From: Sulfuriferula sp.
GTDB lineage: Bacteria; Pseudomonadota; Gammaproteobacteria; Burkholderiales; Sulfuriferulaceae
NCBI GenBank assembly: GCA_013140765.1
Contig: JABFSE010000008.1
Location: 124,001 to 188,000, forward strand
Direction: 5' to 3'
DNA: 64,000 nucleotides
Every line of letters begins with the position of its first letter. The first letter of the stretch is position 1. The translations under genes were made by a program, and so were the position numbers. Below are positions 15,901 through 27,677 of the stretch, piece by piece. The notes under the pieces are model-generated. The model made no database searches. It was not told where the DNA came from and saw nothing but the letters and a program-made list of their open reading frames with translations.

Positions 15901-18390
15901 TCAGCGCTTGCCTGGCTCTAATTTCCAAATATCACGGTTATATTCCATCATCGTTCTATCTGTCGAAAAGAAACCGCTGGCGGCCGTGTTCAATATACTC
16001 ATCTGCGTCCATTTTTTACTATCCTGCCACGCATTTGCTACTGCTTGTTGCGCGTCGAGATAGCTACGGAAATCAGCCAACGTCACCCACGGGTCAGACG
16101 CTGACATCATGCCGTCAATCACATCATCAAAAATACCTGGCTCACAAGGATTAAAGTGTCCACTGCGTAACAAATCAATGACCGCGCGTAAATCAGCATC
16201 TTGCGCGACATATTCCCAAGGGCGGTAATCATGGCGCAAGGCTTCAACCTGCGTATCACGCAAGCCGAATAGGAAGAAGTTTTCCGCGCCTACCGCTTCC
16301 ATGATTTCTATATTAGCACCGTCAAATGTGCCTATGGTCAGCGCACCATTCATCATGAATTTCATATTGCCAGTGCCTGATGCTTCTTTGCCCGCAGTAG
16401 AAATCTGCTCAGACAAATCAGTAGCGGGCGCGATAATTTCCATCGCAGAGACGCGATAATTCGGCAAAAATGCCAACTTTAATCGCCCCTGTACATCAGG
16501 GTCGTTATTGACGACATCGGCAATGTTGTTGACCAACTTGATGATACGTTTGGCCATGTAATAACCAGGTGCGGCTTTGCCGCCTATGAGCACGCAACGA
16601 TTAACCATCTGCTCAACTTTGCCTTGCTTAATTTGCACGTATAGATGAACGACGTGGAGCAGATTCAACAATTGCCGTTTATATTCATGTATCCGTTTTA
16701 CTTGCACATCAAACAGCGCGTGCGGGTCGAAATCCACACCGCAATCAGCTTTGACCAATGCCGCTAAACGTTCTTTATTGGCTAATTTCACTGCGTGCCA
16801 ATGCGCATGAAACGTTTTATGTTTAACCGCTGAATAGGGTTTTAACGCTGCAATTTGGCTTAAATCCGCTATCCAACCATCACCGATTTTTTCACTAATC
16901 AACGCCGTCATGCCAGGGTTGGCGTGCGCTATCCAACGCCGTGGCGTGACACCGTTGGTTTTATTATTAAAGCGTTCTGGCCATAATTGGTAAAAATCAT
17001 GGAACAGCCCATCACGTAATAATTGCGAATGCAGTGCCGCCACACCATTGACGGAAAAACTCCCCACTATCGCCAGCCAAGCCATGCGCACATAGCGTTG
17101 CGGTCCTTCTTCGATAATTGACATCCGTTTTTGGCGTTCAATATCGCCTGGCCAACGCAATGACACGCGGCGTAAAAAGTGGGCGTTAATTTCGTAAATA
17201 ATTTCCAGCAAACGTGGCAACAAGCGTTCAAACAAGCTCACCGACCACCGTTCCAAGGCCTCAGGCAACAAAGTATGATTGGTATAAGCCATACATTTAG
17301 ACGTAATCGCCCACGCCTCATCCCAGCCCATACCTTTTTCATCTAACAACACGCGCATCAATTCGGCAACCGCAATAGTCGGATGCGTATCGTTCATCTG
17401 AAATACGTTTTCATCAGCGAATTTATGGAAATCCATTTCACTGTGACGCACCCAGACGCGCATCGCGTCTTTGATACTGGCGGACGCTAAAAAATACTGC
17501 TGACGCAAGCGCAATTCTTTGCCGTTTTCACTACTGTCATTTGGGTACAGCACCATAGAAATATCTTCGGCTTGGTTCTTAGACTGCACCGCCTCGGTAT
17601 AACTGCCTGCGTTAAACTCGGCTAAATTAAACTCATCTGTCGCCGCCGCTTTCCACAAGCGCAAGGTATTCACTGTTTTATTGCGATAACCTGAAATAGG
17701 CATATCAAACGGAATCGCCAGCACGTCATGGCTACTATGCCAGCGCACGCGGGCATGTCCGTTATCATCATGATAGTGTTCAGTGTAGCCGCCAAACTGA
17801 ATACGCTGGCTGTATTCTATGCGCTCAACTTCCCATGGATTACCATTTTGCAACCAATGGTCTGGTGCTTCTTTTTGCTGACCGTTTTCTATATATTGAC
17901 GAAACATACCATATTCATAGCGTATCCCATAACCCATCACAGGCAAACGCAAACTCGCACAGCTATCCATAAAGCACGCCGCTAAACGACCCAAACCACC
18001 ATTACCCAAACCCGCATCTGGCTCTTCTTCTATCACTTCTTCGAGTTTGTGACTGTAATCCAACAGTGCCTGACCGACTTCAGTCTTAATACCTAAATTC
18101 AGCAAATGGTTACCCATCGCTCGACCGATTAAAAACTCTAACGACATATAAAATGCACGGCGATTGCCAGGTTGCAATTGCTCATTCCACGTATGTCGCC
18201 AATCCACCATCAACCTGTCGCGCAGGACGTATGCCAGTGCCTCGTAATTGTAATTATCAGCACAGCCTTGAAAACGCCCTAAGTGATAAGAAAGATAACG
18301 CTTGAAATCATGCCCTATCGTCGCGGCATCATTTTTTAATGGTTCCAGCGTAAACGGGCGGTACACGTGCGCGAGGTATTCCTTTTTCAT
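15901..18390 (-). CDS. glgP: Glycogen phosphorylase
   Basis: Releases glucose-1-phosphate from the non-reducing ends of glycogen; GT35 family, pyridoxal-phosphate dependent. The 829-residue length is normal. Visible signatures are [14 protein letters not shown] near residue 130, [11 protein letters not shown], and the cofactor segment [14 protein letters not shown] whose Lys forms the Schiff base. It is the last gene of the glycogen operon and overlaps glgA by 4 bases (ATGA). Regulation by the E. coli-type RNA elements could not be judged. Confidence 0.97.
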
Positions 18391-19865
18391 CTATCTGTCC
18401 CTTTATACAATGCCAAATAAGCCTGTGCGCTATGCAACCAGCCAAACGACTGGCGCATCCCTGTACGCACCAGTGCTTGCCAAATGCGCGGTTGCGTGTA
18501 AGCAATTAACGCGCGGTCAACGGTGGCCACTAAAGCTGCCGTTGTTAATTCATCAAACACAAAGCCATTCGCCAGCCCTTGCATGACATGCGCAGGTGTC
18601 GCATCGACCACCGTATCGGCTAATCCGCCAGTGCGATAGACTATCGGCGGCGTACCGTAGCGCAAGCTATACATCTGGTTCAAGCCGCACGGCTCAAACC
18701 GCGACGGCATCATAAACATATCCGCTCCTGCCTCGACTAAATGCGCCAAGGCTTCGTCATAGCCTATAAACACGGCAATACGTTGCGGATAATTCACAGC
18801 AAATTCACGTAACTGCGCCTCAAACCAAGCATCGCCAGTACCGACAAAAACAAAGTTCAACGGCGTATGTAGCAGCCAATGAGGCAAGGCGGCCAAAATC
18901 AAATCCACGCCTTTTTGCTCAACCAGACGGCTCACCATGCCCACTAATGGCACTTGCATCGCAGCGTCGTGCGCAGGTAAATTAAAGTGTTGCAACAACG
19001 CCTGCTTGTTCAATGCTTTCCCAGGCTGTCGTCGATTTGCTGAATAATGCGCAGGTAAATGCACGTCGCTGGCGGGATTCCAGACAGCTTCATCTATACC
19101 ATTCAAAATACCATGCAGCTTATGCCGTGCCGCGAGTAACACGCCTTGCATACCGTAGCCAAACTCAGCAGTACAAATTTCCCCTGCGTAAGTTGGGCTA
19201 ACGGTGGTCACTTCATCGGCATAAACGATACCTGCCTTGAGCATAGAAAAACCGCCATAGAATTCCACGCCCTCAGTCGTCCACCAGTGTCTAGGTAGTG
19301 CCAGACGATTAAATTCATGCAGGCTAAAATGCCCACCGTAAGCCATATTATGAATGGTAAAAACGGATTTTATATGCGGTACAGATTCACGTAAAAAAGC
19401 AGGCACTAAGCCCGTTTGCCAATCATTGGCATGAACCACATCCGCCCGCCATCCTGTACCTAGTACGTCGCCAGCTATGTCTGCCACTGCACGGGCAAAC
19501 ACAGTAAAACGTTCTGCATTATCGCCCCAGTCTTGACCATCTGCTTGCGTGTAGGGGTTGCCTGGACGGTCAAATAGCGCGGCAATATCGACTAAGTAAA
19601 TAGGAAACGCAAATTGTGCATGGCTGATTTCCAGCACGCGCACACTATGCACACGTTTCGCCCCACGCACATCTAACCAGCCCAATATGCGCATAGATTG
19701 TGCTTGCATCAGCACCGCGCGATAAGCGGGCAATATCAATCGAACATCCGCCCCTGCTTGATGCAAAGCGTGAGGCAGGCTATACGCAATATCGCCCAAA
19801 CCACCTGTTTTAATTAAAGGATATGCTTCGCTGGCGGCGAATAATACACGTGTTGCGGTTACCAT
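18387..19865 (-). CDS. glgA: Glycogen synthase (ADP-glucose)
   Basis: Transfers glucose from ADP-glucose to the growing glycogen chain; GT5 family. The ADP-glucose site KTGGLGD is at residues 19-25, and the C-terminal half has [20 protein letters not shown] and RTGGLADTV typical of GlgA. I place the start at ATG 19865 ([17 protein letters not shown], 492 residues); a longer reading to 19946 would run through the end of glgB and adds sequence unlike GlgA. It begins 2 bases after the glgB stop and overlaps glgP by 4. Confidence 0.95.
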
Positions 19866-19867
19866 AA

Positions 19868-22036
19868 TTATTCCGTTATCCGTTGCAAAAACACAGCAGC
19901 CAGTGGCGGCACGGCCAGTATCAAAGATTGCGCAAAACCCATCCACGGCGTATTTTCGGTGTATAACTCCCCCGCATTACCACAGTTGCTACCGCCATAG
20001 TATTCAGAATCAGTATTCAACAAAGTGGTATAACGCCCCGCTTGCGGCACGCCGATACGGTAATCTAAACGTGGTACTGGCGTGAAATTCAGCACCACTA
20101 ATACCTGTTCGGTATCGCTGTGGCGTATCAAGCTCAAGAGCGATTGCTCGCCATCATTGCAATCTACCCAACTAAAGCCGCGTGACTCAAAATCATATTG
20201 ATGCAACGCGGTATGGTGGCGATATAAACGATTCAAATCGCCCACTAAACGCTGCACGCCTTGATGCACAGGGAACTGGCACAAAGTCCAATCTAATTCA
20301 GCTTTATCACGCCACTCGTTCCATTGGGCAAACTCACTGCCCATAAACAATAATTTTTTACCAGGATGCGCATATTGCCAAGCATAGAACAAACGCAAAT
20401 TAGCAAATTTTTGCCAATAATCGCCTGGCATTTTATCTAACATACTCCCCTTAAGATGCACGACTTCATCATGTGACAGCGGCAATACGAAATTCTCGGT
20501 ATAAGCGTAAATTTGACTAAAAGTAAGTTGATTATGCTGGTACTTTCTGTGCACGGGATCGGCTTCAATATAGCTCAGATTGTCGTTCATCCAGCCCATA
20601 TTCCACTTCATCGAGAAACCCAGCCCGCCCATATCCACAGGGCGCGATACCATAGGCCAGGCGGTGGATTCTTCTGCCATCGTCAATACACCCGCAAAGC
20701 GACCATGCACAACGCTGTTTAATTCCTGTAAAAAAGCAATCGCTTCCAGATTCTCACGCCCACCATATTGATTCGCCGCCCACTCACCCGTTTTACGCGA
20801 ATAATCCAGATACAGCATAGAAGCCACTGCATCTACCCGCAAACCGTCAATATGGAATTCTTCTATCCAGAACAGCGCATTGGCTATCAAAAAATTCTTA
20901 ACTTCATTGCGCCCATAATCAAATATCAGCGTGCCCCAATCCTGATGCTCACCACGACGCGGGTCGGCATGTTCATACAAGGGCTCGCCCGTGAATCGCG
21001 CTAAGGCAAAATCATCTTTAGGGAAATGCGCAGGAACCCAATCCAGTATCACGCCTAGCCCCGCTTGATGACAAGCATCGACAAAATCGCGAAACTCGTC
21101 AGGCGTACCGAATCGTGCTGTTGGGGCAAAATAACCCGATACTTGATACCCCCACGATTCATCCAATGGATGCTCGGAAATAGGCAGTAACTCTATGTGC
21201 GTATAAGCCAATTCAGTCAAATACGGTATCAGGCTTTGCATCAACTCACGCCAATTATAAAAACGACCATCGGCATGTCGCCGCCATGAACCAACATGCA
21301 GTTCATAAACGCTCATAGGCTGATGTTGCCAATCAAATTGCGCACGCTGTGCCAGCCAGTGCGCATCTTGCCATACATGCTGACTGACCGCTGGTATGCA
21401 CGAAGCCGTCTCTGGGCGCATAAATGTTTGTTGCGCATAAGGATCAGCCTTAGTAACCAACTGACCATGCCGCCCCAGCATTTCATATTTATAACCCCAA
21501 CCTGCTTGTAAACCTGGAATAAACAACTCCCACACACCGCTTTGACCACGTGAACGCATAGGGCACGCACGCCCATCCCACTGGTTAAAATCACCTATCA
21601 CGCTGACGCGTTGCACGCTAGGAGCCCATACTGCAAATTGGCAACCTGCAACGCCATCCACCACACAAGTCCGTGCGCCCAAGACCTGCCAAGCATCATG
21701 GTGTTTGCCCACGCCTAGCAAATACAAATCCAGCTCACCAATCTGCGGTGCAAAGGTATAAGGACTAATAGCCGAATGCGTAGCACCACTGGCTTTCGCT
21801 ATCCAACGTAATTCAGGATGCGCATCACCTCGTTTTGCCGTGCGCAATTCAAACAAATCAGTCTCTTTAACGCGACTAAATACCGCCCCCGTTGCCAAGC
21901 TCACCTGTTCGGCGGCAGGCATGAAAACACGCAACACCCAAACTGATTCAGCTTGTTGATGCCAACCTAAAATGGCAAATGGGTCGTGATGTGTACCCTG
22001 CTGGATACGATGTACATTTTGTTTATTATTTGGCAT
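19868..22036 (-). CDS. glgB: 1,4-alpha-glucan branching enzyme
   Basis: Creates alpha-1,6 branches in glycogen; GH13. The 722-residue product has an N-terminal carbohydrate-binding (N1) module, a CBM48 domain (around [20 protein letters not shown]), the catalytic barrel with [20 protein letters not shown] (nucleophile Asp), MAEESTAWP (acid/base Glu) and [10 protein letters not shown] (third Asp), and the C-terminal amylase domain. Its start overlaps the end of malQ by 11 bases, indicating translational coupling. Confidence 0.96.
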
Positions 22037-23390
22037 GAGTTAATCGTTTAGTTTGCTGTAAAAGTTGGTACAAATTTGTTGCTAAATCCGCAGGTACATC
22101 TTGCCACTGAAATTGCCATGTCCAATTCCCGTCAGACGTACCTGGCGTATTCATTCTGCCATCGCTATCCAACCCCAACAAATCTTGCATAGGGACAATA
22201 GCTAAATCCGATACGCTATTAAAAATAGTGTATATCATCGCCTCGTTCAAGCCACTGCTGTCGTCTATCTCCAGCGCGGTTAATACCATCCTCTGTTGTT
22301 CTGCTGGCAAGCTATTGAACCAGCCCAGCGTGGTGTCATTGTCATGCGTGCCTGTATAGTACACACGGTCAGGGGTCACATTTTGCGGCTTATGCGGGTT
22401 ATCTTCATAGCTGTCAAAAGCAAACTGTAACACGCTCATGCCAGGCAAATGAAACTGCTCTCTGAGGGCGACGACATCAGGCGTAATCACGCCTAAATCT
22501 TCCGCCACCAACGGCACACTACCCATATCCGCCTGTATGCACTGCAACAACGCATCGCCAGGCACCGCTTGCCAATAACCATCCATCGCTGTCGGACTCG
22601 CCGCTGGTATCATCCAAGAAGCCGCCAAGCCACGAAAGTGATCTATGCGCACCAAGTCAAAAAACTCAAAATGGTAACGTAAACGTTCACGCCACCAAAT
22701 AAAATCTGACTGCCGCATATAATCCCAATCATATTGCGGATTGCCCCAACGCTGCCCAGTTGCCGAAAAATAATCAGGCGGCACGCCTGCAACCAAAGTT
22801 GCTTGCCCTGCCTCATCCAATAAAAAGCAATGCGGATTCGCCCACACATCAGCACTATCGTGCGCAACAAAAATCGGCATATCGCCGAACAAAGCAATTT
22901 GTCGCTCTGCGGCATAGTGGCGCACGTCCTGCCAATACACATAAAACTGATATTGCTGTTGTATCAGCCAGTTAATTTCCAGCTGATATTGTTGTTTAAC
23001 GGTTTGTAACGCCAACACCTCACGTTGCCGTAATGCGTTGGGCCAGTCCACCCATGACGCGCCATCATGTGTTTTTTTTAACTGCATGAATAACGCATAA
23101 TTATCCACCCAGTGCTGTTGTGCGTGATGCCAAGCCTGAAATGCGGGTGCATCAATATCAACCGCAGGTAAATCAGTAGGAAACAAAGCAGGATTAAGCG
23201 CAAAGGCAGAAGCGCACTGATACGGCGAAATCCCTGCCAGCGGCACACCCAATGGCAACATTTGCCACACGCCCACACCCGTATCGGCTAACCAGTCTAA
23301 CCAGCGGTGAGCATCATCCAAGCGTGCTGACGGTAATGAAGTAGGATGCAACAACACTCCTGCCTGACGGACTTGCACGCCCGCGCTCAT
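22026..23390 (-). CDS. malQ: 4-alpha-glucanotransferase (GH77)
   Basis: Disproportionates malto-oligosaccharides by moving alpha-1,4 glucan segments. The short form, 454 residues, is of the plant D-enzyme / Thermus amylomaltase kind rather than the longer E. coli MalQ. Motifs include GVLLHPTSLPS (11-21), VRIDHFRGLAASW (nucleophile Asp), LVAEDLGVITPDV (acid/base Glu) and TGTHDNDTTLGWF. It overlaps the GH57 gene by 4 bases and glgB by 11, so glucan remodelling is built into the glycogen operon. Confidence 0.95.
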   Translation of the reverse strand: MSAGVQVRQAGVLLHPTSLPSARLDDAHRWLDWLADTGVGVWQMLPLGVPLAGISPYQCASAFALNPALFPTDLPAVDIDAPAFQAWHHAQQHWVDNYALFMQLKKTHDGASWVDWPNALRQREVLALQTVKQQYQLEINWLIQQQYQFYVYWQDVRHYAAERQIALFGDMPIFVAHDSADVWANPHCFLLDEAGQATLVAGVPPDYFSATGQRWGNPQYDWDYMRQSDFIWWRERLRYHFEFFDLVRIDHFRGLAASWMIPAASPTAMDGYWQAVPGDALLQCIQADMGSVPLVAEDLGVITPDVVALREQFHLPGMSVLQFAFDSYEDNPHKPQNVTPDRVYYTGTHDNDTTLGWFNSLPAEQQRMVLTALEIDDSSGLNEAMIYTIFNSVSDLAIVPMQDLLGLDSDGRMNTPGTSDGNWTWQFQWQDVPADLATNLYQLLQQTKRLTHAK

Positions 23391-25108
23391 TCTACGTTCC
23401 TGCGCATCGTACCTGCATTTTCAGCATTACCGCCACCTTGTGACAACGGTATATCCAACATGGCAGGCGCGGCAACACCCAGCAATTTATACAGCTCGCG
23501 TAATTGTTCACGATAAAGCTGCTCAAAATCGCTCACGCTACCCGCTGGATTGTAATCACCAAACCACCAAAACCAATCAGAGCCTTCGCATACGGCTAAT
23601 TGCTGGGTCGCATCGGCTAGTTTTTTCGCGCTCAACTTACCTTTGGCAACTACTTTGTCATACGCTGTTTTCGCCGCCACCAAATAATCCCAGCCGCGAT
23701 TTTTATCAGGCGAGCCTATCCACGTCGAGAACGAACCATACACCCAACTCCCCGCGCAAATTTGCGGCAATGGCAAGGCGGGCACTGTTTTCGCCACGTC
23801 GGCAAATGTCGTGGTGCGCACACGGGGTGCAGTCGATAACGCCTCATACAGCGCATCTAAAAAATGCTGACCGTTATCGGGATAGTATTCCCACGCGTTT
23901 TCACCATCCAATATCACCGACACGACATACTGATCCGCCTCATCACCGAGAAAATTAGCGATATTAGTCAGATGCTGTACAAAATCACGCGCCGCATCAT
24001 CTGCGTGCCAATCGCTATAACGGAAACCGATTAAATCTGACAAACCATCATCACGGAAAAACAAGCGCGTCTGCAATTCATTATGCTGACGCGGTTTGAA
24101 TAAGCCCCGTTTGCTATCGCTATCCAAGCCTTCACAGCCTGACAAATGGCAACTATTACGCCACACACCTTCGCCTGAAGCTGTCCAAGCGATACCATGC
24201 GCATCCAATAACGCCACCGCATCCTCGCTGATGCCACCCTCAGCCAGCCACACACCTTTAGGCTGCTGTCCAAAATAATGTGCAAAAACAGCCAAACCAT
24301 GCGTAACATGCCAAGCACTACGCGCATCCCCATCAGGATACGCCAACGCCTGCGGACGCGGTGCTTCAGGTGTTGCACACTGCATATTCTCAAAGCTATG
24401 CAATAACGGAATAATCGGATGCCCATAAGGTGTCATCGCTAATTCAACTTGCCCACGCTCAAACAAAGCGCGATAACGCGGTATCAACCCCGCGAGACAA
24501 TCACGCATCACCGTCAACAAAGTACGTCGTTGCGCCGCACTGAAACAGCCTTGATGCGCAAACAAAGCCTGCACTTCGTCTGATTTGCGTAAGCTCTGCC
24601 CTAGCCAAGCAAGATGATACCAAGTCAGCAAATCAAGGAAATACTGATCGTTCAGATAACGCACCGCGCAACCCACACTGGTACAACCCACGCCCATATC
24701 GTCAGTCGCACCAACCAGTTGCAAAAGCGCACTAAAAGCGGGGTAAGGATGGATCATCCGTGGCGCATGGCAACGTTGGCAATCGCGTATCAATTGCAAC
24801 CGTGCCGCCTCATCCGATGGTATCGGAGCAATACCTGCCAACAGATTCAGCAAGCCATCCTGCATAGCACTACCCGTATCCAGAAAACGCGTGATTTGTT
24901 GCGCGTAATCATCTATTTGCTCCAGCAATACGGGCACAAAATTGACCACGGCACGCATATCAGGATGCGACTCCAGATGCGCAGCCATATCGCTATAATC
25001 TTTAATGCCATGCAAGTAAACCCAAGGCAAACGATACTCGCCCGTGAGCCCTTGCCGATAATAAGGTTGGTGCATATGCCAACACAAAACCACATTCAAG
25101 CGACTCAT
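23387..25108 (-). CDS. GH57 alpha-glucanase / glucanotransferase
   Basis: 573-residue cytoplasmic GH57 enzyme. The family start LNVVLCWHMHQPYYR contains the HQP motif; GVWLAEGGISEDA supplies the catalytic Glu and SVILDGENAWEYY the catalytic Asp; WFWWFGDYNP near the end is shared with the COG1449 amylase group. Activity could be alpha-amylase, amylopullulanase or 4-alpha-glucanotransferase; sequence alone does not decide. It follows glgC by 21 bases and overlaps malQ by 4, so it probably trims or remodels glycogen-derived chains. Confidence 0.9.
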   Translation of the reverse strand: MSRLNVVLCWHMHQPYYRQGLTGEYRLPWVYLHGIKDYSDMAAHLESHPDMRAVVNFVPVLLEQIDDYAQQITRFLDTGSAMQDGLLNLLAGIAPIPSDEAARLQLIRDCQRCHAPRMIHPYPAFSALLQLVGATDDMGVGCTSVGCAVRYLNDQYFLDLLTWYHLAWLGQSLRKSDEVQALFAHQGCFSAAQRRTLLTVMRDCLAGLIPRYRALFERGQVELAMTPYGHPIIPLLHSFENMQCATPEAPRPQALAYPDGDARSAWHVTHGLAVFAHYFGQQPKGVWLAEGGISEDAVALLDAHGIAWTASGEGVWRNSCHLSGCEGLDSDSKRGLFKPRQHNELQTRLFFRDDGLSDLIGFRYSDWHADDAARDFVQHLTNIANFLGDEADQYVVSVILDGENAWEYYPDNGQHFLDALYEALSTAPRVRTTTFADVAKTVPALPLPQICAGSWVYGSFSTWIGSPDKNRGWDYLVAAKTAYDKVVAKGKLSAKKLADATQQLAVCEGSDWFWWFGDYNPAGSVSDFEQLYREQLRELYKLLGVAAPAMLDIPLSQGGGNAENAGTMRRNVE

Positions 25109-25129
25109 ACTGTCTTACCTTTTTAGTTG

Positions 25130-26425
25130 CTAACGATATAAATGTTGCCCTAACATTTCCGGTGTCACCAACACGATGCCTTCTTGCGTAACATGGAAAC
25201 GCTGGGCATCCGCCACCAAGTCTTCACCGATTATCGTACCATCAGGAATAACACAGGCTTTATCAATAATTGCCCGCGTAATACGACAGTTTTTACCTAT
25301 CGACACTTTGGGCAAAATGACACAATCTTTTACCAAACTATAGCTTTCCACCGTACAACCAAAGAACACCACTGAACGCTTCACCCGCGCACCAGAAATA
25401 ATACAGCCTGCGGAAATCAATGAATCTATCGCTTCACCACGTCGCCCCTCATCATCAAAAATAAACTTTGCAGGCGGGGATTGCGGTTGATAAGTCCAAA
25501 TAGGCCAATCACGGTCATATAAATTCAGCTCGGGGTCTATCGCACACAGCTCCATATTCGATTTCCAATAGGAATATACTGTCCCCACATCGCGCCAATA
25601 ACCAGGCGCACCTGTTTCATCGCGGAACGGATACGCCATAGCACGCGATTCATGGATATTGCTAGGAATAATATCCTTACCAAAATCATGCGAAGAACCT
25701 TCAACTTCTGCATCTTCCTTCAGTATTTTGAATAAAAATGCTGTACTAAAAACATAAATCCCCATAGAAGCCAAGGCAATATCAGGCTTGCCTGGCATCG
25801 CTTCTGGGTTAGCAGGCTTTTCGGTGAACTTAGTAATACGCATTTCATCGTCAACCGACATGACGCCAAATTCAGTCGCTTCCATGCGCGGCACTTCGAT
25901 ACAGCCTACGGTAAAATCCGCACCTGTTTCTACGTGATGCAATAACATCGCCGAATAATCCATGGTGTAAATATGATCCCCGCCCAGCACAATGACGTAT
26001 TTAGGGTTATGGCGGAGCACAATGTCCAAGTTTTGGAATAGCGCATCAGCCGTGCCTTGATACCATTCTTTTTTATGCGTGCGTTGTTGCGCAGGCAAAA
26101 TTTCGACAAATTCACCTATCTCCGCCCGCATAAAGCTCCAGGCTCGTTGTAAATGACGAATTAAAGAATGTGATTTATATTGCGTTAATACACCAATACG
26201 ACGCAAACCCGAATTCACGCAATTAGATAAAGCGAAATCCACAATACGGTATTTGCCGCCAAACGGCACAGCAGGCTTGGCACGCCAAGAAGTCAGGTTT
26301 TTTAGACGCGAACCTTCACCGCCAGCCAATACCAACACTAATGTTTTACGCGTTAATTCCGTCACCATTTTTGGTTCTGTGTAATAGCGGTAAAGTTTTT
26401 CTTGTTGCTCTTTCGTTACAGTCAT
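25130..26425 (-). CDS. glgC: Glucose-1-phosphate adenylyltransferase
   Basis: Makes ADP-glucose, the committed step of glycogen synthesis. 431 residues; the nucleotide site GGEGSRLKNLTSWRAKPAVP starts near residue 35, followed by FGGKYRIVDFALSNC, the sugar-site region IVLGGDHIYTMDY and a C-terminal left-handed beta-helix with hexapeptide repeats. The ATG is preceded by GGAGAAG about 10 bases upstream. It lies 113 bases downstream of the glucokinase-like gene, same strand; I found no convincing promoter in that gap. Confidence 0.97.
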   Translation of the reverse strand: MTVTKEQQEKLYRYYTEPKMVTELTRKTLVLVLAGGEGSRLKNLTSWRAKPAVPFGGKYRIVDFALSNCVNSGLRRIGVLTQYKSHSLIRHLQRAWSFMRAEIGEFVEILPAQQRTHKKEWYQGTADALFQNLDIVLRHNPKYVIVLGGDHIYTMDYSAMLLHHVETGADFTVGCIEVPRMEATEFGVMSVDDEMRITKFTEKPANPEAMPGKPDIALASMGIYVFSTAFLFKILKEDAEVEGSSHDFGKDIIPSNIHESRAMAYPFRDETGAPGYWRDVGTVYSYWKSNMELCAIDPELNLYDRDWPIWTYQPQSPPAKFIFDDEGRRGEAIDSLISAGCIISGARVKRSVVFFGCTVESYSLVKDCVILPKVSIGKNCRITRAIIDKACVIPDGTIIGEDLVADAQRFHVTQEGIVLVTPEMLGQHLYR

Positions 26426-26538
26426 TTTTCATCTTCTCCAAAATTATTAACTATCCGTATATTTATACTAAGCAATACTCACACCAACATCAGCCACTAC
26501 ACACCCTCGTCATTAAAAAATTTAATTCGCCTTTAATA

Positions 26539-27504
26539 TCAACTACCCATTGCCATCTGCATTACACCTTGCAAACCCAAACGCGGATTGGTGACTAAAT
26601 AAATTGGCGTTTTTTGCACCAAATCAGCCATGCGCCCTTTAGCAGTGCATATTTGCATAAACCGCCTATCAGCCATCCATGCTTGTAAGTGTATCGCCAT
26701 GCCGCCCGCAATATATAGCCCACCTTGAGGTTGATATAACATGGCTACATTGCCTACCCATGCCGCATAAATATCCACCAATAACTGCACCGCCTGCCGC
26801 GCTAACGCATTGCCCGCCAGTGCCAGACTATGTATTTGAGCCGCATCAAGCACGGTAGCACCTTGTTTATACAGCCGCAATGTTAAAAATTCATGCACCG
26901 CGCTCAAACCAGCACCCGACAAAATACGCGCCCATGCAACATGGGCATAGCGTGCTCGCAACCAAACCAGCAACTGCATTTGCAATTCATCCGCAGGGGC
27001 AAAATCAATATGCCCAGCCTCAGTCGGGTGAATGCGATACACACCATCCGCATCCACTTGCATCCAAGCCAATCCTAACCCCATAACTACCCGCACACCG
27101 CCAAGCCGCACCAGCCCGTGGTTAAGCACACGATAATCAGCCTTGGCGAGCGTTGCCACACCCATCGCCGCTGCTTCACAAGCACTGACGATACGCACAT
27201 CAGCAATCGCCAAGTCTCGCTTTAATGCCACCACATCGACCACAGTAGGCAACGCCAACACTACCCTATCAGGCACACGCACGCTATGCCCTGCGTCTGC
27301 AATAAACTGATACACCAAATCGCTGACACTGGTGAAGTCAGTACGCATATACGTCGTTTCAAAACGCACAACAGCTGGATGATGCAGCTTATGCGTAAAC
27401 CAGACCAACCGACTCCGAGTTGTCCCCACATCGCCTGCGACGACCTGAATAGTATGTGTACCGAGCTGATTATTAGCATCAGCCCAATGCTGGATATTTT
27501 TCAT
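26539..27504 (-). CDS. Glucokinase-family protein with altered active site
   Basis: 321 residues of the Glk (PF02685) family, recognised by TEAGHIDFAP (161-170) and RILSGAGLSAVHEFL (193-207). Compared from memory with E. coli Glk, the phosphate loop GDIGGTNAR is GDVGTTRSR (24-32), the catalytic Asp100 position is Ala108 (IVSACEAAAM against IINDFTAVSM), Glu187 is Ala192, and the sugar-binding TNHxW stretch is absent, whereas the Glu157 and His160 equivalents are kept (Glu162, His165). It is therefore probably not an ordinary active glucokinase. It heads the glycogen cluster, so a sensory or structural role is conceivable. Confidence 0.75.
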   Translation of the reverse strand: MKNIQHWADANNQLGTHTIQVVAGDVGTTRSRLVWFTHKLHHPAVVRFETTYMRTDFTSVSDLVYQFIADAGHSVRVPDRVVLALPTVVDVVALKRDLAIADVRIVSACEAAAMGVATLAKADYRVLNHGLVRLGGVRVVMGLGLAWMQVDADGVYRIHPTEAGHIDFAPADELQMQLLVWLRARYAHVAWARILSGAGLSAVHEFLTLRLYKQGATVLDAAQIHSLALAGNALARQAVQLLVDIYAAWVGNVAMLYQPQGGLYIAGGMAIHLQAWMADRRFMQICTAKGRMADLVQKTPIYLVTNPRLGLQGVMQMAMGS

Positions 27505-27621
27505 GATAAATGCGACATACCGTTTGATTCATTCTACGCCCGAATAACAGCGATTATCTAGCCACCAATACAATTAAAACCCTCCCTGCTTGAAAATAAT
27601 GCAAATCACCCCACGTCTATC

Positions 27622-27665
27622 TTGTTAATTAAATTGCCTCGTGATATAAATAAGAATCTTTCTCA
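27622..27665 (+). promoter_or_regulatory. feoAB promoter with Fur-box-like site
   Basis: TTGTTA (27622-27627), a 17-base spacer and TATAAA (27645-27650) with an upstream TG (extended -10) form a good sigma-70 promoter 28 bases before feoA. Directly downstream, TAAGAATCTTTCTCA (27651-27665) matches about 10 of 14 positions of the 7-1-7 Fur inverted repeat, placed over the likely transcription start where iron-bound Fur would block RNA polymerase. The promoter is seen directly; Fur control is inferred from this and the iron transport genes. Confidence 0.55.
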
Positions 27666-27677
27666 TTTGTGATAAAA

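Follow-up and report, generated by a model that had tools for sequence, protein, structure and literature searches.

The first gene of the glycogen operon in the window, a 64,000-nucleotide stretch of DNA from Sulfuriferula sp., is probably a catalytically dead, still constrained, lineage-specific glucokinase, released from catalysis by Glk2, the second glucokinase of the genome. This gene, hereafter glk1, runs from ATG to TGA over 321 codons, and translation of the open reading frame gave no internal stop. The gene and its operon are arranged as follows.

26539..27504, minus strand: glk1, glucokinase-family open reading frame with lost active site, 321 amino acids, heading the glg operon
27445..27504, minus strand: 20-residue N-terminal extension of glk1, from the alignment of genus orthologs
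15901..26425, minus strand: remainder of the operon downstream of glk1, from glgC to glycogen phosphorylase
25130-26425, minus strand: glgC, named from its translation
23387-25108, minus strand: GH57 protein, by Pfam/NCBIfam
22026-23390, minus strand: malQ, by Pfam/NCBIfam
19868-22036, minus strand: glgB, named from its translation
18387-about 19946, minus strand: glgA, named from its translation
15901-18390, minus strand: glycogen phosphorylase, named from its translation

In the profile search, the product matched Pfam Glucokinase (PF02685) with 187.3 bits against a cut-off of 22.1, and the match spans residues 23-318, corresponding to profile positions 2-311 of 314. The NCBIfam glucokinase equivalogs matched below their curated cut-offs (TIGR00749, 148.9 vs 225.45; NF001415, 164.1 vs 333) and do not identify glk1 as a functional glucokinase. 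A Pfam scan up to E = 1 returned, besides Glucokinase, a weak MerT match (E 0.056), with no ROK and no helix-turn-helix match, and the search of the product with Pfam and NCBIfam for an output domain, including a DNA-binding one, found none. One ROK-type NCBIfam model scored 13.8, far below its cut-off of 380. A candidate identification of glk1 as a ROK repressor or sugar-responsive regulator was rejected, as it had neither the ROK profile match nor the DNA-binding domain of such a protein. The N-terminal extension is a feature of Glk1 in the window's genus and is absent from E. coli Glk and from the locus L042; W7, D9 and N12 of the extension are nearly invariant among the aligned genus orthologs and are retained in the window copy.

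The fold predicted for the window protein is complete. The AlphaFold2 model had a pLDDT of 83.8 with 13 aligned sequences (85.0 for Glk1 of the nearest relative, G002), and its best solved match was 1sz2, E. coli glucokinase with glucose (Z 30.8, rmsd 2.2, 295 residues), so that profile and predicted fold both place glk1 in PF02685. ROK proteins share the wider fold, the model giving Z 19.7 with 5f7r. Intact homologs stood in the AlphaFold2 alignment, and the model therefore says little about stability.

For the active site, residues were numbered after E. coli Glk, which was read from its own gene and aligned with glk1. The relevant places are given below.

27418..27432, minus strand: phosphate-1 motif DVGTT, residues 25-29; G12 changed to T28, with D9, G11 and T13 kept
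27243..27244, minus strand: junction of a private 14-residue in-frame deletion, residues 87/88; LTNLxW loop removed (TNHTW of E. coli Glk)
27175..27186, minus strand: residues 107-110, SACE, where 13 other aligned orthologs have NDFQ; Asn99, Asp100 and Phe101 lost
27084..27085, minus strand: junction of a private 4-residue in-frame deletion, residues 140/141; TGAG of the phosphate-2 loop removed
27010..27021, minus strand: residues 162-165, EAGH; E157 and H160 kept, G158 changed to Ala
26926..26937, minus strand: residues 190-193, AWAR; S185 and E187 both changed to Ala, R188 kept
26701..26724, minus strand: adenosine motif GGLYIAGG, residues 261-268, kept (GGxxxAGG)

As the preliminary description had proposed, the Asp100 and Glu187 positions are alanine in glk1 (A108 and A192), the Glu157/His160 pair is kept (E162 and H165), the phosphate loop is altered and the TNHxW segment is missing, the 14-residue deletion following residue 87. 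The deleted TGAG corresponds to positions 133-136 of E. coli Glk, in the second phosphate loop, and the adjoining T137 is M141 in glk1. Further losses are N99 to S107, F101 to C109, S185 to A190, G12 to T28 and G158 to A163, and the residues kept include G159, H183, R188, K284, R286, D9, G11 and T13. A functional glucokinase should have the glucose contacts Asn99 and Glu187 as well as Asp100, which here are S107, A192 and A108, and should have the TNxxW sugar loop and the GAGTG phosphate loop, of which in-frame deletions have removed the former and cut the latter. We take Asp100 to be the catalytic base of E. coli Glk, and Glu157 of that enzyme presumably contacts glucose as well. E. coli Glk (PF02685; 1sz2, 1q18) shares with Glk1 the family, the predicted fold, E157, H160, H183, R188, R286, D9 and the adenosine motif, but has N99, D100, E187, S185, G12, the TNHTW loop and positions 133-136, all lost by Glk1.

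In the available part of PMC13133996, the glucose-binding residues are given as Asn99, Asp100, His160 and Glu187, and the phosphate (anion) site is formed by His160, His183, Ser185, Arg188 and Arg286. By these lists, glk1 has lost three of the four glucose residues, only H160 being left (E157, too, is kept), and has kept four of the five anion-site residues, with S185 alone lost. Judged by residues, the product should be without catalysis, and its binding of glucose and of ATP phosphates is unlikely, in the case of glucose because N99, D100, E187 and the TNHTW loop are gone. It is extremely improbable that glk1 encodes a kinase of altered chemistry that has remained active, or that the sequence is an assembly artefact. 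The predicted fold is retained, as are several motifs, but the catalytic Asp and the sugar loop have gone together with part of the phosphate loop. The genes flanking glk1 are syntenic with G002, and the base changes are numerous, separate and compatible with an open frame, a pattern that an assembly error would not produce.

The preliminary description had gone on to suggest a sensor of glucose or glycogen state, which is not supported. A role in sensing or regulation, with a ligand that reports on glucose, glycogen or phosphate altering the activity of a partner when bound, would be consistent with the retention of E157 and H160, of the anion residues H160, H183, R188 and R286 with the nearby K284, of the adenosine motif and of the N-terminal extension specific to the genus. 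Eukaryotic hexokinases are known sugar sensors, and glucose-sensing hexokinases are the subject of a review, from the available part of which this point is taken (PMC8256278). Nevertheless, the loss of three of the four glucose residues and of the TNxxW loop makes glucose binding unlikely, the kept anion residues may simply belong to the conserved scaffold, and the domain search described above found no output domain. We thus regard this explanation as quite improbable. Any ligand of Glk1 would, from the kept anion pocket and adenosine motif, more likely be an anion or a nucleotide than glucose.

We examined how widespread the loss is. In the window's family, which comprises one genus, a glucokinase match was found in 16 of 18 genomes, the remaining two being 75% and 77% complete. 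A glk1 ortholog is present in 13 genomes of the genus, the window's included. It lies immediately upstream of glgC in all 14 other ortholog loci, and the order glk1-glgC-GH57-malQ-glgB-glgA is found in all 11 loci that are long enough, including those of Thiobacillus and Hydrogenophilales MAGs. These orthologs (L004-L015, L023 and L024) share the operon-head position and are 44-62% identical, sequences shorter than 0.9 of the window gene having been dropped from the comparison; the Thiobacillus and Hydrogenophilales MAG orthologs stand at 44%. The aligned orthologs retain the columns that the window copy has lost (13 orthologs in the invariant-column set, 12 of the genus in the residue table). 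Of the 89 columns that are invariant across the 13 other Glk1 orthologs, 21 are broken in the window copy, nine of them by deletion; in leave-one-out comparisons, the count for each of those 13 orthologs is 0 to 4. This difference indicates that the losses in glk1 exceed chance. Neither of the deletion junctions has a gap in any of the 13 other aligned orthologs.

Across the order, 399 genomes were searched and 246 of them gave matches, from which the best 30 loci were taken. The preliminary description had proposed to look for the same substitutions in homologues; with the order loci drawn from these best 30, N99, D100, E157 and E187 are kept in 38 of 38 other glucokinase rows (12 genus orthologs, five further genus Glk, the genome's own Glk2, E. 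coli Glk and 19 order loci). The active-site loss thus occurs in one of the 39 rows, that of the window copy, and is private to it among the rows compared, in a set with one genome per species and one genome for the window lineage. The loci L002 and L020 were dropped as duplicates of L003 and L001 before the counts. The ortholog of G015 on a short contig (L036) was left out of the codon work and of the 13-row invariant set, and its protein (L009) was included in the residue table and in the conservation-depth split described below.

Some other genes of the genus deserve mention. The G015 ortholog (L009/L036, on G015:C34) carries one in-frame TAG, which may be a sequencing error or separate decay, and this genome is 64% complete. 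The genomes G001, G003 and G006 show no glk1 ortholog, their glucokinase genes all being Glk2-like; Asn takes the place of His160 in the glucokinases L018, L017 and L016 of these genomes. A second Glk-like ORF of G003 (L021, G003:C1:2762305-2766069) matched the glucokinase profile no further than position 256 of 314, and its C-terminus, read by eye, resembles the end of 6-phosphogluconate dehydrogenase, a possible gene fusion.

For the rate analysis, six active-site motifs were set from the general anatomy of this kinase fold, the adenosine motif included, and were chosen after the alignment had been seen. They replaced a first split whose blocks followed the changes themselves and omitted the intact adenosine motif. 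Changes unique to the window copy or to intact G002 were counted with five outgroups (G017, G016, G004, G011 and G012). With G017, the counts outside the motifs were 27 for the window copy and 25 for G002, and inside the motifs 9 and 2. With G016, G004, G011 and G012, the outside counts were 30/25, 28/21, 26/21 and 27/21 (window/G002), none significant as a whole, and the inside counts were 10/1 each (p = 0.012). A small outside excess for the window copy was seen with all five outgroups, and for residues 1-140 outside the motifs it was 13 vs 4 with G011 (p = 0.049). The relative rates of glgC, malQ, glgB and glgA did not differ significantly between the window genome and G002, and GH57 was slower in the window genome with two of the five outgroups. 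In the protein tree of the whole glk1 product, the window branch was 0.41 and the G002 branch 0.27; for four neighbouring genes together, both branches were 0.12.

A neutral tail was then fitted to the window branch with a model of three site classes, using the genus rows and leaving out the two MAG orthologs. Over all codons, the tail (tau) was 0.20 neutral substitutions per codon, with a delta lnL of 21-22. Divided by the six motifs, tau was 0.62 inside and 0.10 outside, the split gaining a delta lnL of 5.84, and none of 300 bootstraps showed an effect as large. The lower 95% bound of the inside value lies at about 0.3, and the outside value beats 0 by a delta lnL of about 5, indicating mild relaxation elsewhere. 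Without the NDFQ block, the motif effect fell to a delta lnL of 2.34, and to 1.60 when T137 was dropped too. As controls, nine intact tips gave tau of 0.000-0.030 over all sites; eight of them were within 0.000-0.025 with delta lnL under 1, and the ninth, G012, gave a tail of 0.03 with a delta lnL of 7.5. For this tip, which has a very close sister in G008, the functional branch went to zero, which shows that the method cannot be relied on where branches are very short.

Four of the eight glucose and anion residues listed in the available part of PMC13133996 are substituted, compared with 8 of the 72 other non-deleted invariant columns (Fisher p = 0.015). When the invariant columns were split by conservation depth, no enrichment was observed (10 of 40 family-wide columns lost vs 13 of 49 Glk1-specific ones, p = 1). 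Preferential loss at the active site therefore rests on the motif tests and the published residue list, and not on the conservation-depth split. A branch model with six taxa gave an omega of 0.147 on the window branch vs 0.116 elsewhere, the rise not being significant (delta lnL 0.22), and omega = 1 over the whole window branch was rejected (lnL -5188.14 vs -5180.47); this model used 6 of the 14 glk1 rows, and its omega values are rough, since synonymous sites are near saturation and the model averages over sites.

These results bear on plain decay, in which glk1 would be a young pseudogene made redundant by Glk2, with mutations neutral everywhere and the frame left open by luck, or only because stops would be polar on the downstream glg genes. 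Such decay is a real, though lesser, possibility. It is in accordance with the redundancy of Glk2, with the clear support for a neutral tail over all codons, with the restriction of the loss to one of 39 rows and with the lack of enrichment by conservation depth. In simulations, a frame remained open by chance with a probability of 0.355 at tau 0.1, 0.115 at 0.2 and 0.044 at 0.3. However, both private deletions are in frame, the changes cluster in the active-site motifs, and the sequence elsewhere is not significantly faster than that of the intact sister. A tail short enough for the scaffold is too short for the active site, and one long enough for the active site brings the probability of an open frame to 0.044, so that uniform decay fits poorly. 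As for the signs of a pseudogene, the frame is open, omega = 1 is rejected, and there is some relaxation outside the motifs and more inside.

The gene that would have permitted the loss is Glk2. It was found on contig C31 of the window genome with 321.8 bits in the profile search, is intact by sequence and carries N99, D100, E157, H160 and E187 (L001, L037). It belongs to the same Pfam family as Glk1, in the same genome, and differs in having the catalytic residues; the two are about 31-34% identical. A GH15-like gene, named from reading, lies beside it, and the same neighbour pair is found in G002, which has an intact Glk1 and an intact Glk2. Among the 13 genomes with glk1, a second glucokinase match occurs in these two only, some of the others being incomplete. 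No ROK-family match was found across the window genome. Redundancy with Glk2 would explain a possible loss of Glk1 catalysis without any sensor role.

From the residues and the operon, the Glk1 orthologs would be ordinary glucokinases acting on free glucose from glycogen and malto-oligosaccharide turnover. In the window lineage, Glk2 would have been able to take over glucose phosphorylation, lifting selection on the Glk1 active site; Asp100, Asn99 and Glu187 would then have been lost, along with the TNxxW loop and a portion of the ATP phosphate loop. The reading frame has remained open, and away from the active site the scaffold seems to evolve about as slowly as that of the intact sister, so a folded glucokinase-like protein without catalysis is most likely still produced. 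We infer that glk1 is expressed, that its product folds and has lost activity, and that this activity can be dispensed with. Of the conserved frame with lost catalysis in the preliminary description, the loss of the residues stood and the frame and most of the scaffold look constrained; retention for a function is less certain, decay or a passenger state being possible.

There are two candidate sources for the constraint on a dead Glk1. It might come from a positive role, for instance as a non-catalytic subunit with Glk2 or a glycogen enzyme, or in anion binding at the mostly kept phosphate pocket. Alternatively, glk1 could be a passenger, constrained only as the translated first gene of the operon, and a passenger needing only to avoid misfolding or to be translated without interruption would show much the same sequence pattern. 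A very recent loss of catalysis would also leave the rest of Glk1 little changed. It is rather unlikely that the protein is a bacterial pseudo-glucokinase with a positive function, serving Glk2, or a glycogen enzyme encoded in its operon, as a subunit without catalysis or as a partner that responds to phosphate; the proposal builds on the loss of catalysis and glucose binding in a protein whose fold, adenosine motif and anion pocket, the last for the most part, are kept.

A Glk1-Glk2 heteromer is conceivable by analogy with the apicomplexan heteromeric pantothenate kinases, in which two kinase paralogs form one active complex and some paralogs of the family appear non-functional, according to the available part of PMC8366970. 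That system concerns another family in other organisms, neither paralog is called catalytically dead in the same part of the source, and the complex of Glk1 with Glk2 is hypothetical. A literature search of titles and abstract openings, in which subscription journals were thinly covered, showed no paper about a catalytically dead bacterial glucokinase among those listed. Should Glk1 have been retained for some role, it would be the bacterial equivalent of the non-catalytic functions of eukaryotic hexokinases, and the intact orthologs of the same glycogen operon would permit a direct before/after comparison. If it is decaying, it would clearly exemplify an enzyme in the course of being replaced by its paralog. 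On either reading, an automatic label 'glucokinase' on glk1 would be misleading.

The sequence between the genes was inspected as well. The gap between glk1 and glgC (26426-26538) is 113 nt in the window genome vs about 29 nt in G002, and a scan of it found no promoter-like site. Upstream of glk1, one short block stands out.

27531..27545, minus strand: 15-nt block ATTCGGGCGTAGAAT immediately before the start of glk1, shared without change by G002, the nearest relative

This block is possibly the promoter region of the operon, although a promoter scan of the glk1 upstream region gave one site vs 2.8 expected and lent no support to a promoter. Divergent from glk1 lies a pair of genes that we read from their translations as feoA-like and feoB. 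Upstream of this pair, the 24 nt at 27645-27668, TATAAATAAGAATCTTTCTCATTT, which we take to resemble a Fur site, are identical in G002.
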